From: Opitutales bacterium
Lineage (GTDB): Bacteria > Verrucomicrobiota > Verrucomicrobiia > Opitutales > Oceanipulchritudinaceae
Direction: 5' to 3'
DNA length: 32,881 nt
Assembly (NCBI GenBank): GCA_020831585.1
Contig: JAFIGE010000045.1
Span: forward strand, 1-32,881
A model generated the notes under the pieces. The model was not told the DNA's origin and did not search any database. It worked only from the letters and a program-made list of their open reading frames with translations. The translations under genes and the position numbers were made by a program. This document shows, one piece after another, positions 4,060 to 28,759 of the stretch; the stretch's first letter is position 1; every line of letters begins with the position of its first letter.

Positions 4060-4217
4060 CGATCACATTTCTCTACCGGGGTGGCTGGTTGAATGGTAAC
4101 TGCTATTGGTGCTTGTGCCTTTGCCGGGCCCCTACGCTGAGGACCGCCCATAGACGCATTCGCATTTCCAAAGGATTTCCGCTGGAAAAAGCCGGAAGCC
4201 GCGTCTACCGTTGCATC

Positions 4218-4724
4218 ATGGCAAAACCTGAACAGTGCGGAAACTGCAAAAAGCCCGCGACGATTCACCTCACGCAGATCGTCAACAACCAAGTACACAA
4301 GGTCGATTTGTGCGAAGATTGTCCGTTCAAGAAAGGGGTCACCGATCCCGAGGGGTTTTCTTTGGGAGAGTTTTTGCTCAAGCCGGGCGTGTTGCCGATT
4401 GGAGCAGGGGAGGCGGTTACCTGCCCCGGTTGCGGATTTGCGCCGATTGATTTCAAGAAACACGGCCGTTTTGGTTGCCCGCAGTGTTACGAGACCTTCA
4501 AGGGAATGCTCAAGCCGATGCTGGCGAATATGCACAAAGACGTGATTCACCGGGGTAAAGTGCCGGACCGCGCCCTCACGCGGGTAAGTATCCGCAGGAA
4601 ACTCGAAGAACTCGAAGAGGGCCTCCAAGCTGCGATCGAGGAGGAAGCCTACGAAGAAGCCGCCCGTTTGCGGGACGAAATCCGCATCCTCCGCAGCTCC
4701 CTCGCGGACGCCCCCAAAGCCTAA
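4218..4724 (+). CDS. mcsA: McsA, zinc-binding activator of the McsB protein arginine kinase
   Basis: McsA binds and activates McsB and couples it to ClpC. The protein has 168 residues. Two pairs of zinc-type cysteines make one site (CGNC at 7-10, CEDC at 32-35) and two more pairs make a second (CPGC at 69-72, CPQC at 87-90). The C-terminus carries a UVR motif (IRRKLEELEEGLQAAI..YEEAARLRDEI), the interaction element also found in ClpC and UvrB/C. The start is the ATG at 4218, giving MAKPEQCGNC; the frame is open to an ATG at 4089, but that extension has no family similarity. It is followed after 11 nt by mcsB, and clpC comes next, so the three likely form an operon. In Firmicutes the operon begins with the repressor gene ctsR; none is present here and no CtsR heptad operator was seen. 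Confidence 0.93.
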   Translation: MAKPEQCGNCKKPATIHLTQIVNNQVHKVDLCEDCPFKKGVTDPEGFSLGEFLLKPGVLPIGAGEAVTCPGCGFAPIDFKKHGRFGCPQCYETFKGMLKPMLANMHKDVIHRGKVPDRALTRVSIRRKLEELEEGLQAAIEEEAYEEAARLRDEIRILRSSLADAPKA

Positions 4725-4735
4725 ATCCCCCCCCT

Positions 4736-5824
4736 ATGCACATCCTCCCTCTCATTGAAGCCAAGTCTGAGTTGACCGACGGCGGACTCCCGCCGGAGCC
4801 CATCGTCCTCAGCACCCGCATTCGCCTGGCTCGCAATATTTCTCCCTTCTCTTTCCCCGGTTGGGCCTCCGAGGAGGTTCGCGAGGAGGTCTTGGACAAG
4901 TGTATACAGACCCTCTCCGCCCTCGGTACTCTCAGCTCTGCGGTGGCTCTGCGCATGGACGCCCTCTCCGCCCTCGAAAAGCAGGTCCTTGTGGAGCGGC
5001 ATCTGGTCAGCCGCGAGTTGACCGAGTCGACCGGTGGCTCGGGTGTGATCATCACGCCGGACCAGCATCTCTCCATCATGGTCAACGAGGAGGACCATTT
5101 GCGCCTGCAGGCGGTCCGATCGGGCTTTAATTTTAAGACTGCGTGGTCTGACATCAACACCCTCGACACCGTCATCGAGGGTGAGCTGGACTATGCTTTC
5201 TCCTCCGACCTCGGCTATCTCACCGCCTGCCCGACCAATCTGGGCACAGGTATGCGAGCCTCCGCTATGTTGCATCTTCCGGGTTTGGTTATCCAAGAAC
5301 ACATGGAAAAGGTCATTCGCATGGTGAACCAGCTGGGTATGGCTGTGCGGGGGCTTTTTGGCGAAGGATCTGAGGCCACAGGCAGCATTTTCCAGATTTC
5401 CAATCAGCAAACTCTTGGCGAAACCGAGGAGTCCATCATAAAACGCCTCGTCAACATCCTCGAAGCCATTGTCGAACAGGAGCAGAATGCGCGGCAGATG
5501 GTTCTGGAGACCAAAGCCGCCAAACTTCTCGATAAAATGGGGCGTGCACTCGGAATCCTGCAAAATGGGCATCTTTTAAGCTCAGAGGAAGCCATGAACC
5601 TTCTCAGCCTGATGCGCCTGGCGGTGGATCTCGGCCTGCTGGATGAACCCTATCGCGCTCACATCGACCGTTTGTTCATCGAGACACAACCGGGTCATAT
5701 TCAGTTCACCGCCCGTGGCGAAATCGAACCCGGTCAGCGCGATGAGCAACGCGCCCGGCGTATGCGGGAGGAATTCCGCCGAGTTGACGGGTTGCGGATT
5801 TCGGGCGGAGGGGCAGGAGCTTGA
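4736..5824 (+). CDS. mcsB: McsB, protein arginine kinase
   Basis: It phosphorylates arginine residues of proteins, marking them for ClpC-ClpP degradation. The protein has 362 residues, close to the Bacillus enzyme. The phosphagen-kinase core is visible: ATP-binding STRIRLARN near residue 27, the NEEDHLR loop, the catalytic-domain block ACPTNLGTGMRASAMLHLP, and RGLFGEGSEATG. The C-terminal part carries RDEQRA at 335-340, matching the RDxxRA phosphoarginine-binding motif that separates true McsB from creatine and arginine kinases acting on small molecules. It starts 11 nt after mcsA, and clpC follows after 105 nt. I see no broken motif. Confidence 0.94.
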   Translation: MHILPLIEAKSELTDGGLPPEPIVLSTRIRLARNISPFSFPGWASEEVREEVLDKCIQTLSALGTLSSAVALRMDALSALEKQVLVERHLVSRELTESTGGSGVIITPDQHLSIMVNEEDHLRLQAVRSGFNFKTAWSDINTLDTVIEGELDYAFSSDLGYLTACPTNLGTGMRASAMLHLPGLVIQEHMEKVIRMVNQLGMAVRGLFGEGSEATGSIFQISNQQTLGETEESIIKRLVNILEAIVEQEQNARQMVLETKAAKLLDKMGRALGILQNGHLLSSEEAMNLLSLMRLAVDLGLLDEPYRAHIDRLFIETQPGHIQFTARGEIEPGQRDEQRARRMREEFRRVDGLRISGGGAGA

Positions 5825-5874
5825 TCACCGGGTATAGCCATTCGCTTTCGTCGCGCGGGAAACGTGCCAAGGTT

Positions 5875-5903
5875 TTGACACCCCGTTGGAACCTCTTTTT
5901 ATT
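5875..5903 (+). promoter_or_regulatory. Possible sigma70-type promoter of clpC
   Basis: TTGACA at 5875-5880 is a consensus -35 box. After a 17-nt spacer, TTTATT at 5898-5903 is a fair -10 box, 26 nt before the clpC ATG. It lies in the 105-nt mcsB-clpC gap and would let clpC be transcribed separately from mcsAB. No CIRCE or CtsR-like repeat is visible. The leader would be very short, so this is tentative. Confidence 0.4.
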
Positions 5904-5929
5904 GACCTCATTAAACAAGAAGAATCCCC

Positions 5930-8446
5930 ATGGAACCAATGAACAATTTTACGCCCCGCGCTCAACAGGTCCTCGCCTTGGCCCGCAAAGAAGCCGACCG
6001 CTTCCACCATAACTATGTGGGGACGGAACACCTTCTTCTCGGCCTCATCAATTTGGGCCAGGGTGTTGCGGTGAACGTTTTGCAAAAAATGGGCCTTGAT
6101 CTGGAGACCGTCCGGAGTGCTGTGGAAAAGCAAGTCGGCAAAGGGACGGCCGCCAAGCCCACCGGCAATATACCTTACACTCCCCGGGTGAAGAAGGTTC
6201 TCGCCCTCGCCGGAAAGGAAGCCAAGGCGCTGAATCACAGCTACGTCGGCACAGAGCACATTCTGCTCGGCCTCCTTCGCGAGGGCGACGGTGTGGCGGC
6301 CCGCGTCCTAAAGAGTTTGGATGTCGATATTGAACGGTGTCGCGACGAAATCCTCAGTGAGCTGGACCCGAATTTTTCCGGTGAGGGCGGGGGCTCCGGT
6401 GATCCCGGAGCTTCCGGTCCTGTGGGTGCCGGGGGTGGGGGTGGCGCTCCCGAGGAGCGCAAGGAAGTTAAGACGCCTGCGCTAAAGGCATTCGGGCGTG
6501 ACCTCACGGAACTCGCCCGCAATGGCGAGCTGGACCCTGTCATCGGGCGAAAACAGGAGATTCGCCGCGTCGTCCAAATTCTGTGCCGCCGCACGAAGAA
6601 CAACCCCGTGCTCATTGGTGAGGCCGGGGTGGGCAAGACGGCTATCGTCGAAGGGCTCGCCCTTGAGATCGCCAACGGCCTTGTGCCCGAGATCCTTGCC
6701 GACAAGCGGCTCATCACTCTTGACCTTGCTCTCATGGTGGCCGGTACAAAATACCGCGGCCAGTTTGAAGAACGCATCAAAGCGGTGATGGATGAGATTC
6801 GGCGTGCCAAGAATATCATCATCTTCATTGATGAATTGCACACCATCGTGGGCGCGGGTGCCGCCGAAGGTGCCATGGATGCCTCGAATATCTTTAAGCC
6901 GGCTCTCAGCCGGGGCGAGCTCCAGTGTATCGGTGCGACAACCCTCGCCGAGTATCGCAAATACATCGAGAAGGACAGCGCCCTCGACCGTCGCTTTCAG
7001 AGCGTGATGGTAGAGGCACCCTCGCCGGAGGATTCGGTTGAAATTCTCAAGGGCATCGCCCCCAAATATGAAGACCACCATAAGGTGGATTATACGCCCG
7101 CTTCGCTGGAAGCGGCAGTGAAGCTCTCCGATCGCTACATCACCGCCCGTTTTCTTCCTGACAAGGCCATCGACGTTCTGGACGAAGCCGGTGCGCGAGC
7201 CCGCATCAACTCGCTCGATCGCCCGCCCGAGATTGAAAATCTCGCCAAGGATATCGAGGAAGTCTGCCAGAAGAAGGAAGAGGCCATCAGCAAACAGCAG
7301 TTTGAAGATGCCGCCAAGTTCCGTGATGCGGAAAAGCAGTTGCGCGCGAAGCGTGAGCAGATGCTGGAGGAATGGAAGAAGAACCGCGCCGAAAAACGTA
7401 TCAAGGTCGACATCGATGATATGCTCCATGTCGTCAGCGACTGGACGGGCATTCCTCTGAACCGCATGGAGCGCAAAGAGTCCGAAAAACTCCTCCACCT
7501 CGAAGGCGATTTGCAAAAAGCCGTCATTGGCCAAGACGAAGCTACCGTGGCCATCTCGAAGGCCCTGCGCCGCAGCCGGGCCGATCTCAAGGATCCGCGC
7601 CGGCCGATCGGATCTTTCCTGTTTATGGGGCCCACCGGCGTAGGGAAGACCCACCTCGCCAAGACCCTGGCGGAGATGATCTTCGGTGAGCGGGAGTCTA
7701 TCGTGCAGATCGACATGTCGGAATACATGGAAAAGTTTTCCGTCTCCCGGCTTATCGGTTCGCCCCCGGGTTACGTGGGTTACGAAGAGGGCGGGCAGCT
7801 CACAGAAACCGTCCGCCGCAAGCCCTATTGCGTGGTACTCTTCGACGAGATTGAGAAGGCGCACCCGGATGTTGTTCAGCTCCTCCTTCAGGTTCTGGAA
7901 GAGGGGCGCCTGACGGACAGCCTCGGCCGAACAGTCGACTTCCGCAATACCATCATCATCATGACATCCAACGTGGGTGCGCACATCTTGCAGAAGAGCC
8001 AGAGCCTTGGTTTTGGTGTGGACGATGTGGACGGCGATTTCGACAAAACGAAGGGCAAAATCCTCGACGAAGCCAAACGCGTCTTCAAGCCCGAGTTCCT
8101 CAATCGGATCAACAGCATCATCGTCTTCCGCCAACTTCAGCGCACGCACCTGCGCCGCATCGTTGATTTGGAAATTGCGAGCGTGTCAAAGCGCCTCCGG
8201 GAAAAGAACCTTTTCCTCGAAGTCACCGATGCCGCCAAGGACTTCCTTATTGATCAGGGATATGATGAAAAGTACGGCGCGCGCCCACTGCGGAGATCGG
8301 TGGAGCAGCACCTTGAAGATCCCTTGGCTGAACACCTTCTGCGCGATGAGATCCGCGAGCACGAACCGATCCTCGTGGATCCGAATCCCACAAACACAGC
8401 TTTGACCTTCACTCAAGAAGCGCCTACTGCCGGTAGCGTGCCTTGA
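5930..8446 (+). CDS. clpC: ClpC-type Hsp100 ATPase (Clp protease ATP-binding subunit)
   Basis: A AAA+ unfoldase that feeds substrates into ClpP. The 838 residues show, in order, the double Clp-N repeat ([16 protein letters not shown] and [16 protein letters not shown] blocks, each followed by YVGTEHxLLGL) and a Gly-rich linker near 150-170. NBD1 has Walker A GEAGVGKT at 230-237 and Walker [11 protein letters not shown] middle domain with a UVR motif ([21 protein letters not shown]) is diagnostic of ClpC over ClpA or ClpB. NBD2 has Walker A GPTGVGKT starting at 567 and Walker [12 protein letters not shown]. The SLGF tripeptide-type loop for ClpP docking follows LQKSQ. The C-terminal D2 block [21 protein letters not shown] ends the core. 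The start could be 5930 or the ATG three codons later. It follows mcsA and mcsB, its functional partners; clpP is not in the window. Confidence 0.96.
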
Positions 8447-13439: not shown

Positions 13440-13994
13440 CTAAGACCACTCCGGCGGATTCTGGCAATCCGCCCGGAGAACCCCGATGTAGGGGAGGTTG
13501 CGGTAGTGTTCGGCGAAATCCAAACCGTAGCCGATAACAAACTCGTCGGGAATGTCGAAACCCACGTAGTCCGCTCTCGCGGAAACGGCCCGGCGCGCTT
13601 TCTTTTCCAATAGCGCGGCGAAGCGGGCGGTGGCCGGGCGAAGGCTGCGGATCTCTCGCATGACCCGCTCGAAAGTGAAGCCGGTGTCGAGGATGTCGTC
13701 GATCACAAGGACATGCCGGTCACGAATGTCCAAGCGCAGGGTGTCAATGATTTGCGGTTTTTGCACGGGAGAGGTGTCGTCCCGGTAGCTGGACACGCGC
13801 ATGCAATCCAACCGCACGGGCAAGGTGATGTGGCGCATCAGATCGGCTGTAAACATCAGCGCCCCGTTGATGATGGCAATGATGGTCAGCTCGCCGACCT
13901 CGGCATAGTCTCGCGAGATCTCGGCCGCCAGAGCCCGCACGCGGGTGTCAATTTGCTCGGCCGTGACGACTATTTTCTCAAGATCTTCGTGCAT
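13440..13994 (-). CDS. hpt: Hypoxanthine phosphoribosyltransferase
   Basis: It salvages hypoxanthine and guanine with PRPP to IMP and GMP in the cytosol. The 184 residues match the family. The PRPP-binding loop VLVIDDILDTGFT is exact, the flexible-loop region SSYRDDTSP is present, and the base-binding C-terminal block ADYVGFDIPDEFVIGYGLDFAEHYRNLPYIGVL is the HPRT signature. The start used is the ATG at 13994 (MHEDLEKIVVTAEQI); an ATG at 14111 would add 39 residues with no similarity. It is divergent from the Cys-repeat gene, with about 190 nt between the start codons. Confidence 0.93.
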   Translation of the reverse strand: MHEDLEKIVVTAEQIDTRVRALAAEISRDYAEVGELTIIAIINGALMFTADLMRHITLPVRLDCMRVSSYRDDTSPVQKPQIIDTLRLDIRDRHVLVIDDILDTGFTFERVMREIRSLRPATARFAALLEKKARRAVSARADYVGFDIPDEFVIGYGLDFAEHYRNLPYIGVLRADCQNPPEWS

Positions 13995-14187: not shown

Positions 14188-14982
14188 ATGATCAGAACAT
14201 TCCTAATACTTGTCGCTGCTGCGGTGGCTTCCTACAGCCTTATGGTCTATGCCGGGAGCGCTTCCTGTCCCGTTTCTTTCGTCTCTTCAAGTGAAACGAG
14301 GGTGGCTGCCTCCGCCTGCTGCGGGGAGAAAACCGTTTTGGCCTCCTTGCCCGCCGCTCAGGAATGCAGCGGTTCCGATAACCTGCTCGCTGCCTCGGGT
14401 TGCTGCGCTACTGCCGCCGTTTTGGCCTCAGCGCCCGCCGTAGAAACAAGCGGTTGCTGCTCTGCGCAAGCCGTCCTGGCCTCGGCTCCTGCCGTGAAGG
14501 CTGATGCTTGTTGTGCAGCTGAAGCAGTTCTCGCTTCGCAGCCAGCGGTTGATGCCAGCGCGTGCTGTTCGTCCGTCGCCGTGGCCGCCGTTGAGGCAGC
14601 CTCGTGCTGTGCCGCCGCCGCCGTTTTGGCTTCCGGACCCGCGGTCAAGGCAGATGATTGCTGCGCTTCCGCCGCTGTCCTCGCTTCCGTGCCAGCTGTC
14701 AGTGGCGATGCCTGCTGCGCCGGCGGGGCAACGGCTGCCAAGGCCGAAGCGGTATCCGTTGACTGTTGCAGTGGAGCGACCACGGTGGCCGATTCCTGCT
14801 GTGCGGGAGCCGGCTGTGGTGCTTTGGAGACGGCTTCTGTTTCTCCGACTGGCGGGGCGCAGGCGGTTCTCGCTTCTATGGTCGAGGCGGATGCAGGTGA
14901 CTGCGCTGCAGCCTGCGCCAAAGAGTGCGGCGCGGAAGCTTGCTGCGGCGGAGAGTTGGCGGCTGTAACCCCCGCTCGCTGA
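14188..14982 (+). CDS. Secreted protein with 18-residue Cys-Cys repeats, unknown function
   Basis: I do not recognise the family. The protein has 264 residues. Residues 2-23 form a signal peptide (IRTFLILVAAAVASYSLMVYAG), so it is probably exported to the periplasm or beyond. The mature part is built on CC-x3-AVLAS-x-PAV-x4. Adjacent Cys pairs occur at 44, 72, 90, 108, 126, 140, 158, 176, 193, 204 and 252, with exact 18-residue spacing over most of 72-176. Six single Cys bring the total to 28, and the rest is mostly Ala, Val, Ser and acidic residues, with few aromatics. The DNA of the units has diverged, so the repeat is not a recent duplication and appears to be selected. Metal binding, redox storage or a disulfide-linked surface layer are all possible; none is shown. 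A strong terminator follows. Confidence 0.8.
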   Translation: MIRTFLILVAAAVASYSLMVYAGSASCPVSFVSSSETRVAASACCGEKTVLASLPAAQECSGSDNLLAASGCCATAAVLASAPAVETSGCCSAQAVLASAPAVKADACCAAEAVLASQPAVDASACCSSVAVAAVEAASCCAAAAVLASGPAVKADDCCASAAVLASVPAVSGDACCAGGATAAKAEAVSVDCCSGATTVADSCCAGAGCGALETASVSPTGGAQAVLASMVEADAGDCAAACAKECGAEACCGGELAAVTPAR

Positions 14983-15019: not shown

Positions 15020-15060
15020 AAAGCCTCCATGGTATCGCCCATGGAGGCTTTTTGTCTTTT
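15020..15060 (+). terminator. Rho-independent terminator after the Cys-repeat gene
   Basis: A perfect 13-bp stem (AAAGCCTCCATGG / CCATGGAGGCTTT) with a 6-nt loop is followed by a T-rich tail, 38 nt past the stop codon. It is the clearest terminator in the window and implies that the Cys-repeat gene is a single-gene transcript. Confidence 0.9.
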
Positions 15061-21893: not shown

Positions 21894-22892
21894 TCAGTTG
21901 CGTTTATCTGCGGTTGCGACCGTCGCGAAGTCGGCACCACCGTCCTCCATCAGCGGTTTGGGCTTCCTTCCCCTTCGAAAGCCCAGCCAGCCATTGGCCG
22001 CACAGAAGCTCTCTACCCAGGCTACCGACCCCACCGCCCAGCTCTCGCTGAAGGCGCGGATCTTCGAGAGAAGCCCCGATTCTTCCGCCAAACCCGCTAC
22101 AGGCATCGCTTTCTCCTTCGTTGCACCGGCTGCTGTGCTCCTCTGATTCCTTCGAAGAGGCCGCGCTCCCGGTCCCATCCGGCTGCACAGCCGCGTACGG
22201 TAGCGCTCGTGCCATTGGGTCGTCCAAGTCATCTTGCCCTCAGTCCGGGCGATCCCCCGCCGTGCAGCCGAGCCACCCGCGCACGCCTCCCCGAAACCAC
22301 TGAAGCCATAGGCCCCCGCGTCCTCCACCAGCCCCGCCCGCACCGGGTTCAAATCAATATACGCCGCCACCATCCTTTGCGCCGCCGTATCCGCCTCCAC
22401 CACCACGCTGCGGAAACGCTCCGCCCAGAAAGTCCCCACCGTGTCGTGCTTCTGATTATACCATAAAGTAAACCGCGTTTTCACCTCCCGCATAAAGACA
22501 GACACATCCCCCATCCGCGCCTTCAGCCGTCGACGGATACCCTCTGCGGAGCTTCCGTTCTTCTTCAGAATGACCTCCAGATCATCCGCATCCAACCCCA
22601 GCGAAGCGCAACGCGTCCCCCCATAGAGCGCCCGAAACCGCGTCACCAGACCCGCATCGTCCAAATCCTCCGTCTCCTTCGGATCCAGCCGCACGAAGAT
22701 ATGAAAGTGATTCGCCATAAAGCAATACGTCAGCACCTCCATTCCTGCGAACGCCGCCTGCGAGCGCATGATATGGCGCATCGCCTTCATCGCCTCCTCA
22801 TCCATCAGCCGTCTTTTCTGCACCACCCTCGAAATAAGGTGGTGGCACGCTAGTCGCGGATACTTCAATCTTCGGCAAAACCTTCTGCTCAT
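21894..22892 (-). CDS. REP-associated tyrosine transposase (RAYT), apparently complete copy 2
   Basis: A Y1/HUH nuclease of 332 residues. The HUH motif is H62-F-H64 in MANHFHIFVRL. The likely catalytic Tyr is Y145 in RFTLWYNQKH, followed by the family block GTFWAERFRSVVVE and AAYIDLNPVRAGLVEDAG. All expected motifs are intact, so it may be active. Beyond about residue 205 the protein has a long C-terminal extension that is not recognised; copy 3 at 13090-13354 shares its first part at the DNA level. The start is the ATG at 22892, conserved in copy 1; the frame opens four codons earlier at 22904. A perfect 15-nt palindrome lies 41 nt upstream, and a REP-like repeat lies about 200 nt upstream at 23097-23190, both plausible substrates or control sites. 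Confidence 0.9.
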   Translation of the reverse strand: MSRRFCRRLKYPRLACHHLISRVVQKRRLMDEEAMKAMRHIMRSQAAFAGMEVLTYCFMANHFHIFVRLDPKETEDLDDAGLVTRFRALYGGTRCASLGLDADDLEVILKKNGSSAEGIRRRLKARMGDVSVFMREVKTRFTLWYNQKHDTVGTFWAERFRSVVVEADTAAQRMVAAYIDLNPVRAGLVEDAGAYGFSGFGEACAGGSAARRGIARTEGKMTWTTQWHERYRTRLCSRMGPGARPLRRNQRSTAAGATKEKAMPVAGLAEESGLLSKIRAFSESWAVGSVAWVESFCAANGWLGFRRGRKPKPLMEDGGADFATVATADKRN

Positions 22893-22932
22893 GCTACGAC
22901 TCAAACACTTGCTTAGTGTCTGTCAATGGTGC

Positions 22933-28306: not shown

Positions 28307-28759
28307 ATGAACAGATTCTTCCGCCCGCTCGCCTCCCTTTTTCTTTTCGCTGCCGCTGCCGTGATGGCGCACGGCGCGAACTGGACCACCGACTATGCCG
28401 CTGCCAAGGAGCAGGCAAAGGCGGAGAACCGCCACATTCTCCTGGAGTTCACCGGATCCGATTGGTGCCCGCCCTGCCAGCGGCTGAATGCCGAGGTGTT
28501 CTCGCGCAGTGAGTTCAGCGCCTTCGCCGACGCAAACCTGATCCTCGTGAAGCTCGATTTTCCCCGCCGCACCGAACAGGCACCCGAATTGGCCGCGCAA
28601 AACCGTCGTCTCGCCGAAAAATATGGTATCCAGGGTTTCCCCACCGTCATCATCCTCAACCCGAGCGGTGAAGAGATCGAGCGCACGGGCTATCGCCGTG
28701 GCGGCGTGGCGGCCTACATCCGGCATCTGGAGTCGGTGCTCGCCCGGAGCAAATCGTGA
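28307..28759 (+). CDS. Secreted thioredoxin-fold protein
   Basis: 150 residues with a signal peptide (residues 1-23, MNRFFRPLASLFLFAAAAVM then AHGA), so it is exported. The mature part has the thioredoxin fold with active site C54-P-P-C57 in GSDWCPPCQRL and the cis-Pro loop GIQGFPTVIIL. The W-C-P-P-C form occurs in thiol:disulfide proteins of cytochrome maturation and envelope redox. It has no transmembrane DsbD partner here. It is divergent from the M20-gpgS operon and is followed by a terminator. Whether it reduces or oxidises is unknown. Confidence 0.88.
   Translation: MNRFFRPLASLFLFAAAAVMAHGANWTTDYAAAKEQAKAENRHILLEFTGSDWCPPCQRLNAEVFSRSEFSAFADANLILVKLDFPRRTEQAPELAAQNRRLAEKYGIQGFPTVIILNPSGEEIERTGYRRGGVAAYIRHLESVLARSKS

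Follow-up and report, generated by a model that had tools for sequence, protein, structure and literature searches.

Exported metal stores are rare among bacteria outside methanotrophs and a few other groups (PMC12510493). Csp1 of Methylosinus trichosporium and NGO1701 of Neisseria gonorrhoeae are exported four-helix bundles with Cys-lined cores and about 13-15 or more Cys, and a role as Cu(I) store of the envelope has been proposed for them (PMC7558416, PMC12510493), while CopG, also a copper protein of the envelope, carries a tetranuclear copper cluster at a periplasmic CxCC motif (PMC7558416). The protein described here is the product of a plus-strand ORF at 14188-14982 in a stretch of 32,881 nucleotides from an Opitutales bacterium (genome G000, bacterial family f1); the whole stretch is called the window, and the product of the ORF the window protein. 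We give about an even chance to its being a lineage-restricted exported buffer or store of soft metals in the cell envelope, most likely of Cu(I), a function which we infer by analogy.

Layout of the gene and its surroundings

A recount reproduced exactly the coordinates, the reading frame, the length of 264 aa and the counts of 28 Cys and 11 CC given in the preliminary description (Table 1). The CC pairs start at residues 44, 72, 90, 108, 126, 140, 158, 176, 193, 204 and 252, with intervals of 28, 18, 18, 18, 14, 18, 18, 17, 11 and 48, so that the 18-residue spacing stands, but not the statement that most pairs follow it, as it is exact in half of the intervals (5/10). Five units (72, 90, 108, 140 and 158) follow the form CC-x3-AVLAS-x-PAV strictly, and the unit at 44 does so more loosely. 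At the N-terminus is a hydrophobic stretch such as type I signal peptides have, and the signal peptide of the preliminary description, read from the sequence, is graded probable; a start with ..YAVVTTAG is also present in the orthologues.

Table 1. Positions in the window of the Cys-repeat gene, its parts and its flanking elements
Feature	Position	Strand	Remarks
CDS, secreted Cys-repeat protein	14188..14982	+	264 aa, 28 Cys, 11 CC, no His, no Trp
Probable signal peptide, residues 1-22, MIRTFLILVAAAVASYSLMVYA	14188..14253	+	hydrophobic run, then A-x-A-like site (sequence reading)
CC unit 1, residues 44-71, looser variant CCGEKTVLASLPAA	14317..14400	+
Three 18-residue units in succession, CC at 72, 90, 108	14401..14562	+	form CC-x3-AVLAS-x-PAV
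Shortened unit, CC at 126	14563..14604	+	14 residues
Two 18-residue units, CC at 140 and 158	14605..14712	+
Degenerate CC units at 176, 193 and 204	14713..14820	+	unit at 176 of 17 residues; C210 included
C-terminal segment GGAQAVLAS...CxxxCxxxCxxxxCC	14851..14946	+	GAQAVLA block and several Cys kept in orthologues
Intrinsic terminator, 13-pair stem and T-rich tail	15020..15058 (stem 15020-15051)	+	fold z = -5.7
Phosphoribosyltransferase gene (Pribosyltran, hpt-like)	13443..13994	-	divergent from the Cys-repeat gene

The protein has 28 Cys, no His and no Trp, and its mature chain has a single aromatic residue. The Cys content of the window protein is 10.6%, compared to a mean of 1.05% over 844 ORFs sampled from 1.125 Mb of the same genome, among which the second-highest number of CC pairs is 2. 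Shuffling the mature chain 20,000 times at constant composition gave a CC count of 3.1 on average and of 10 at most, against the 11 present, and the 12 Cys matches at lag 18 exceed the 2.9 expected if CC pairs are shuffled intact (0/5000 shuffles; P<0.0002).

The strong terminator that the preliminary description ascribed to the gene was recovered, as a 13-pair stem with its T tail. An AraC-type regulator and a Gfo/Idh/MocA oxidoreductase are encoded downstream of the gene; neither an adjoining metal gene nor a recognised metal-response site is present, and the regions upstream of the orthologues yielded no convincing conserved promoter motif. Elsewhere in the window, an mcsA-like gene (UVR motif, CxxC), an mcsB-like guanido kinase gene and clpC stand in a row at 4212-8446 and make up a protein-arginine kinase/Clp module, which is best known from Firmicutes. 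The window also has two copies of a Y1_Tnp transposase (IS200-like, REP-associated type) at 3-302 and 22480-22779 (ORFs 1-427 and 21894-22904, both on the minus strand), which are 87% alike, and a further copy (L251:1-520, minus strand) is found on contig C125 of the same genome, beside a Cus operon.

Relatives and what they conserve

Direct protein searches for relatives, in 55 genomes and in genome_contigs, gave nothing convincing. The orthologues were missed because low complexity hides them, and they were located by synteny, since the hpt neighbourhood of the window is common to three species of genus g3 (G002, G009 and G013; the window protein is in g1, and all are in family f1) and a gene divergent from hpt is present across the same intergenic region. 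Their identity to the window protein is 37-40%, and the four share the hpt-divergent locus, Cys columns and the GAQAVLA block; the 12 remaining genomes of the family with hpt showed no comparable ORF next to it. An exact-spacing DNA pattern, CC-18-CC-18-CC, pointed to a same-family gene with a signal peptide (G006:C77), which a profile of the four orthologues matched as a weaker relative at E 4.6e-4 in a search of 347 genomes of the order. That profile had no other match in the 347 genomes, and no other homologue in a 388-genome sample of the phylum. The family is thus narrow, comprising genera g1, g3 and probably g7. Low-complexity families of this kind escape normal homology searches, and synteny can recover them.

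Other candidates were discarded. With the exception of G006, matches to the DNA pattern in genomes of the order, the phylum and the GTDB species were almost only CTG/CAG-type repeats or out-of-frame readings; weak matches at L002, L003, L037 and L041 were either dismissed or turned out to be Cys-bearing proteins of no relation, and an apparent CC-bearing ORF at L048 is a Lys/Ala-rich protein read in another frame. The window protein matched no Pfam family at E<=0.1, no PDB entry at E<=10, and nothing in NCBIfam, PHROGs or plasmids, in agreement with the earlier view that it belongs to no named family.

The gene is real and under selection. When the five strict units are compared, they differ by 0.23/0.20/0.69 at codon positions 1/2/3, and pS is 0.67-1.0 (saturated) with pN of 0.14-0.28; the third-position excess and these values show that the reading frame is fixed and coding, and saturated pS with low pN means that the protein motif, and not recent DNA duplication, holds the units alike. 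Between the g3 orthologues dN/dS is 0.15-0.23, and not near 1. The proposal of the preliminary description, that the DNA units have diverged while selection keeps their spacing, is therefore borne out both within the gene and between species.

The Cys are the best-conserved residues of the family: 22 of the 24 Cys columns are invariant in the g3 orthologues, in comparison to 67% of non-Cys columns, and 15 Cys columns are common to all four proteins. The related genomes hold homologues with the 18-residue Cys spacing, a point that the preliminary description had named as a check, but with the doublet poorly kept, because in g3 most CC doublets are replaced by a single Cys or by CxxxC, with intervals of 14, 4, 14, 4, 14 and 18. 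Among the Cys spacings, lag 18 ranks first in G002 (P=0.005) and G006 (P=0.006), first or equal first in G009 (P=0.12) and second in G013 (P=0.07); the values for G002, G009 and G013 are not mutually independent. Spacings of 4 and 14 also recur in the orthologues. In g3, residues 18 positions apart show no excess of identity, which means that the Cys spacing outlives the repeat text. The conserved unit is the 18-residue Cys period and not the CC doublet.

A spacing of 18 residues could line Cys along one helix face. In the proline-free segment 105-178 of the G002 orthologue, which was picked after inspection, the helical angles of nine Cys are confined to a sector of 100 degrees (resultant 0.79; P=0.0002 by comparison with shuffles). 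In the window protein every strict unit contains a proline, and a single-sequence structure model, of very low confidence and unusable (pLDDT 46), has separate helices of ~12 residues; one continuous helix is therefore unlikely. The one-face arrangement suggested earlier is supported for the orthologue segment, but is unlikely as a single helix running through the window protein.

Metal context, proposed function and rival explanations

Several other CC-bearing proteins of these genomes have a connection with metals. In G002, G009 and G013, of the same family, P-type metal ATPases that contain the heavy metal binding domain HMBD have CC motifs in their N-terminal part; in G003 and G011 there is one CC amid His. 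In G000 a probably secreted Cys-rich protein (CCC..CC; L251:703-1092, contig C125), with no family match in Pfam or PHROGs, heads a cusC-cusB(HMBD)-cusA operon, and its homologues lie near HMBD genes in G002, G009 and G013; its co-occurrence with the window protein in these four genomes was given no weight as evidence, because they are close relatives. In G008 an ArsR-family regulator with a CC tail (L207:3525-4066) ends in a stop that shares nucleotides with the start of a CC peptide of 43 residues (MSDNDKCCSGSENEKKEGCCTQG...KCCCCG), and in the wider order G064 has a CusF-like protein, just below the Pfam cut-off, with ADDCCAAP after its signal peptide. The metal-linked CC proteins are presumably unrelated to the window protein, and it is by analogy that they lend a metal role indirect support.

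A CC a few residues past the signal peptide was also observed in otherwise unrelated exported proteins of fasciclin-domain, CusF-like and YscW type (L002:1123-1644, minus strand, in G054; L038:1477-1830 in G064; L209:1286-1717 in G011), and may be a shared tag. Family f11 of the order, together with the genomes G005 and G011 (L212-L225), has clade-wide exported Cys-rich low-complexity proteins with the head AHCG[STG]CG, CxxxCxxxCC clusters and expanding units such as AECSKDK; the gene stands alone near a dus or YmdB-like gene, usually once per genome. Homology of these proteins to the window protein was not supported, as their alignment was no better than with CC-preserving shuffles.

If the window protein buffers metal, its short Ala-rich helices would display thiolate ladders, with CC or CxxxC in each turn group. 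Cu(I) or ions like it may then be held there in multinuclear clusters that bridge repeats or packed helices, in a manner comparable to Csp proteins though with a different fold. The protein would thereby reduce the level of free metal beyond the cytoplasm, in addition to the Cus efflux that the same genome encodes. Helix packing, metal binding, the identity of the metal and the envelope location are the steps that we infer; in an oxidising periplasm the CC pairs could go over to disulfides, which counts against a metal buffer. A bolder version, which we hold as tentative and rather doubtful, is that this is a new exported metal-binding class, with a thiol ladder of 18-residue period kept by selection on short Ala-rich helices and with multinuclear clusters of Cu(I) or other soft metals along one face, that is, a modular, repeat-extendable envelope store unrelated to Csp and metallothioneins. 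If it is a metal store, a Cys phase that is kept while the rest diverges would be a natural, extendable design for thiolate clusters.

The main rival is a disulfide-linked envelope scaffold, in which the CC/CxxxC ladders are joined by disulfides within and between chains and so give stiffness to the periplasm or to a surface layer, as with chlamydial OmcA/OmcB. We judge it unlikely, though it agrees with a protein that is probably exported, Ala-rich, repetitive and best conserved at its Cys, and with the exported Cys-rich protein of the f11 relatives, with its expanding repeats and usual single copy per genome. Chlamydiae, which have Cys-rich OmcA and OmcB in their outer membrane complex, are moreover related to Verrucomicrobia (PMC2811131). 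However, the window protein resembles no Pfam or PDB entry in sequence, cross-linking does not need a regular one-face helical spacing of thiols, and the CC-bearing proteins found elsewhere in family f1 are metal-related. A trap for arsenic(III), mercury or another soft metal that is not copper would be consistent with the binding of As(III) by vicinal dithiols and with the translational overlap of the ArsR gene and the CC peptide in G008, but that peptide lacks a signal peptide and resembles the window protein in CC content, not by established homology, while the clearest metal-linked CC protein of G000 sits with Cus genes; such a trap is in our opinion improbable.

Equally improbable is a periplasmic thiol or redox buffer, whose CC pairs would switch between dithiol and vicinal disulfide and absorb oxidants or feed thioredoxin-like proteins. 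Vicinal Cys are capable of such cycling, and the window does encode a thioredoxin-like protein (28307-28759), but it is 13 kb away, and no redox partner is adjacent or conserved at the syntenic loci. This explanation is weakened because the doublets are not conserved: their replacement by CxxxC or single Cys in orthologues should abolish vicinal-disulfide chemistry, and yet the spacing is kept. A non-functional or drifting low-complexity ORF would account for the failure of ordinary protein searches and for the very narrow distribution; it is scarcely credible and already contradicted by the low dN/dS, the third-position bias between units, and the conserved locus and terminator.

Comparison with known systems

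The envelope proteins OmcA/OmcB/Srp are Cys-rich, as is the window protein, and come from a phylum related to that of the window, but there is no sequence match to them (no Pfam match), and size and Cys layout are different. The AHCG[STG]CG proteins of f11 and of G005/G011 have in common with the window protein a signal peptide, a low-complexity Cys tail, CxxxCxxxCC clusters and a single stand-alone gene. With CopG the window protein shares a CC-containing motif; unlike CopG, it has no thioredoxin-like domain (no domain match) and no CxCC motif.

Metallothioneins such as SmtA and MymT resemble it in high Cys content, the lack of His and Trp and the one aromatic residue of its mature chain, and multi-metal thiolate binding is probable; it differs from them in being probably exported, in its length of 264 aa and in its CC at period 18, and the metallothionein families in Pfam and NCBIfam gave no match. 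Similarly to Csp1, the window protein is probably exported and has many Cys, which are proposed to lie along helices. In contrast to Csp1, its signal has no Tat twin-arginine motif, it has no Csp match in Pfam (E<=0.1) and no match in PDB (E<=10), and it is Ala-rich and built of repeats. The pLDDT 46 model gave no evidence of a four-helix bundle, and the Cys of the G002 segment lie on one helix face. We therefore file the window protein under no named family; by analogy, its mode of action could resemble that of a Csp or a metallothionein even though it is neither.
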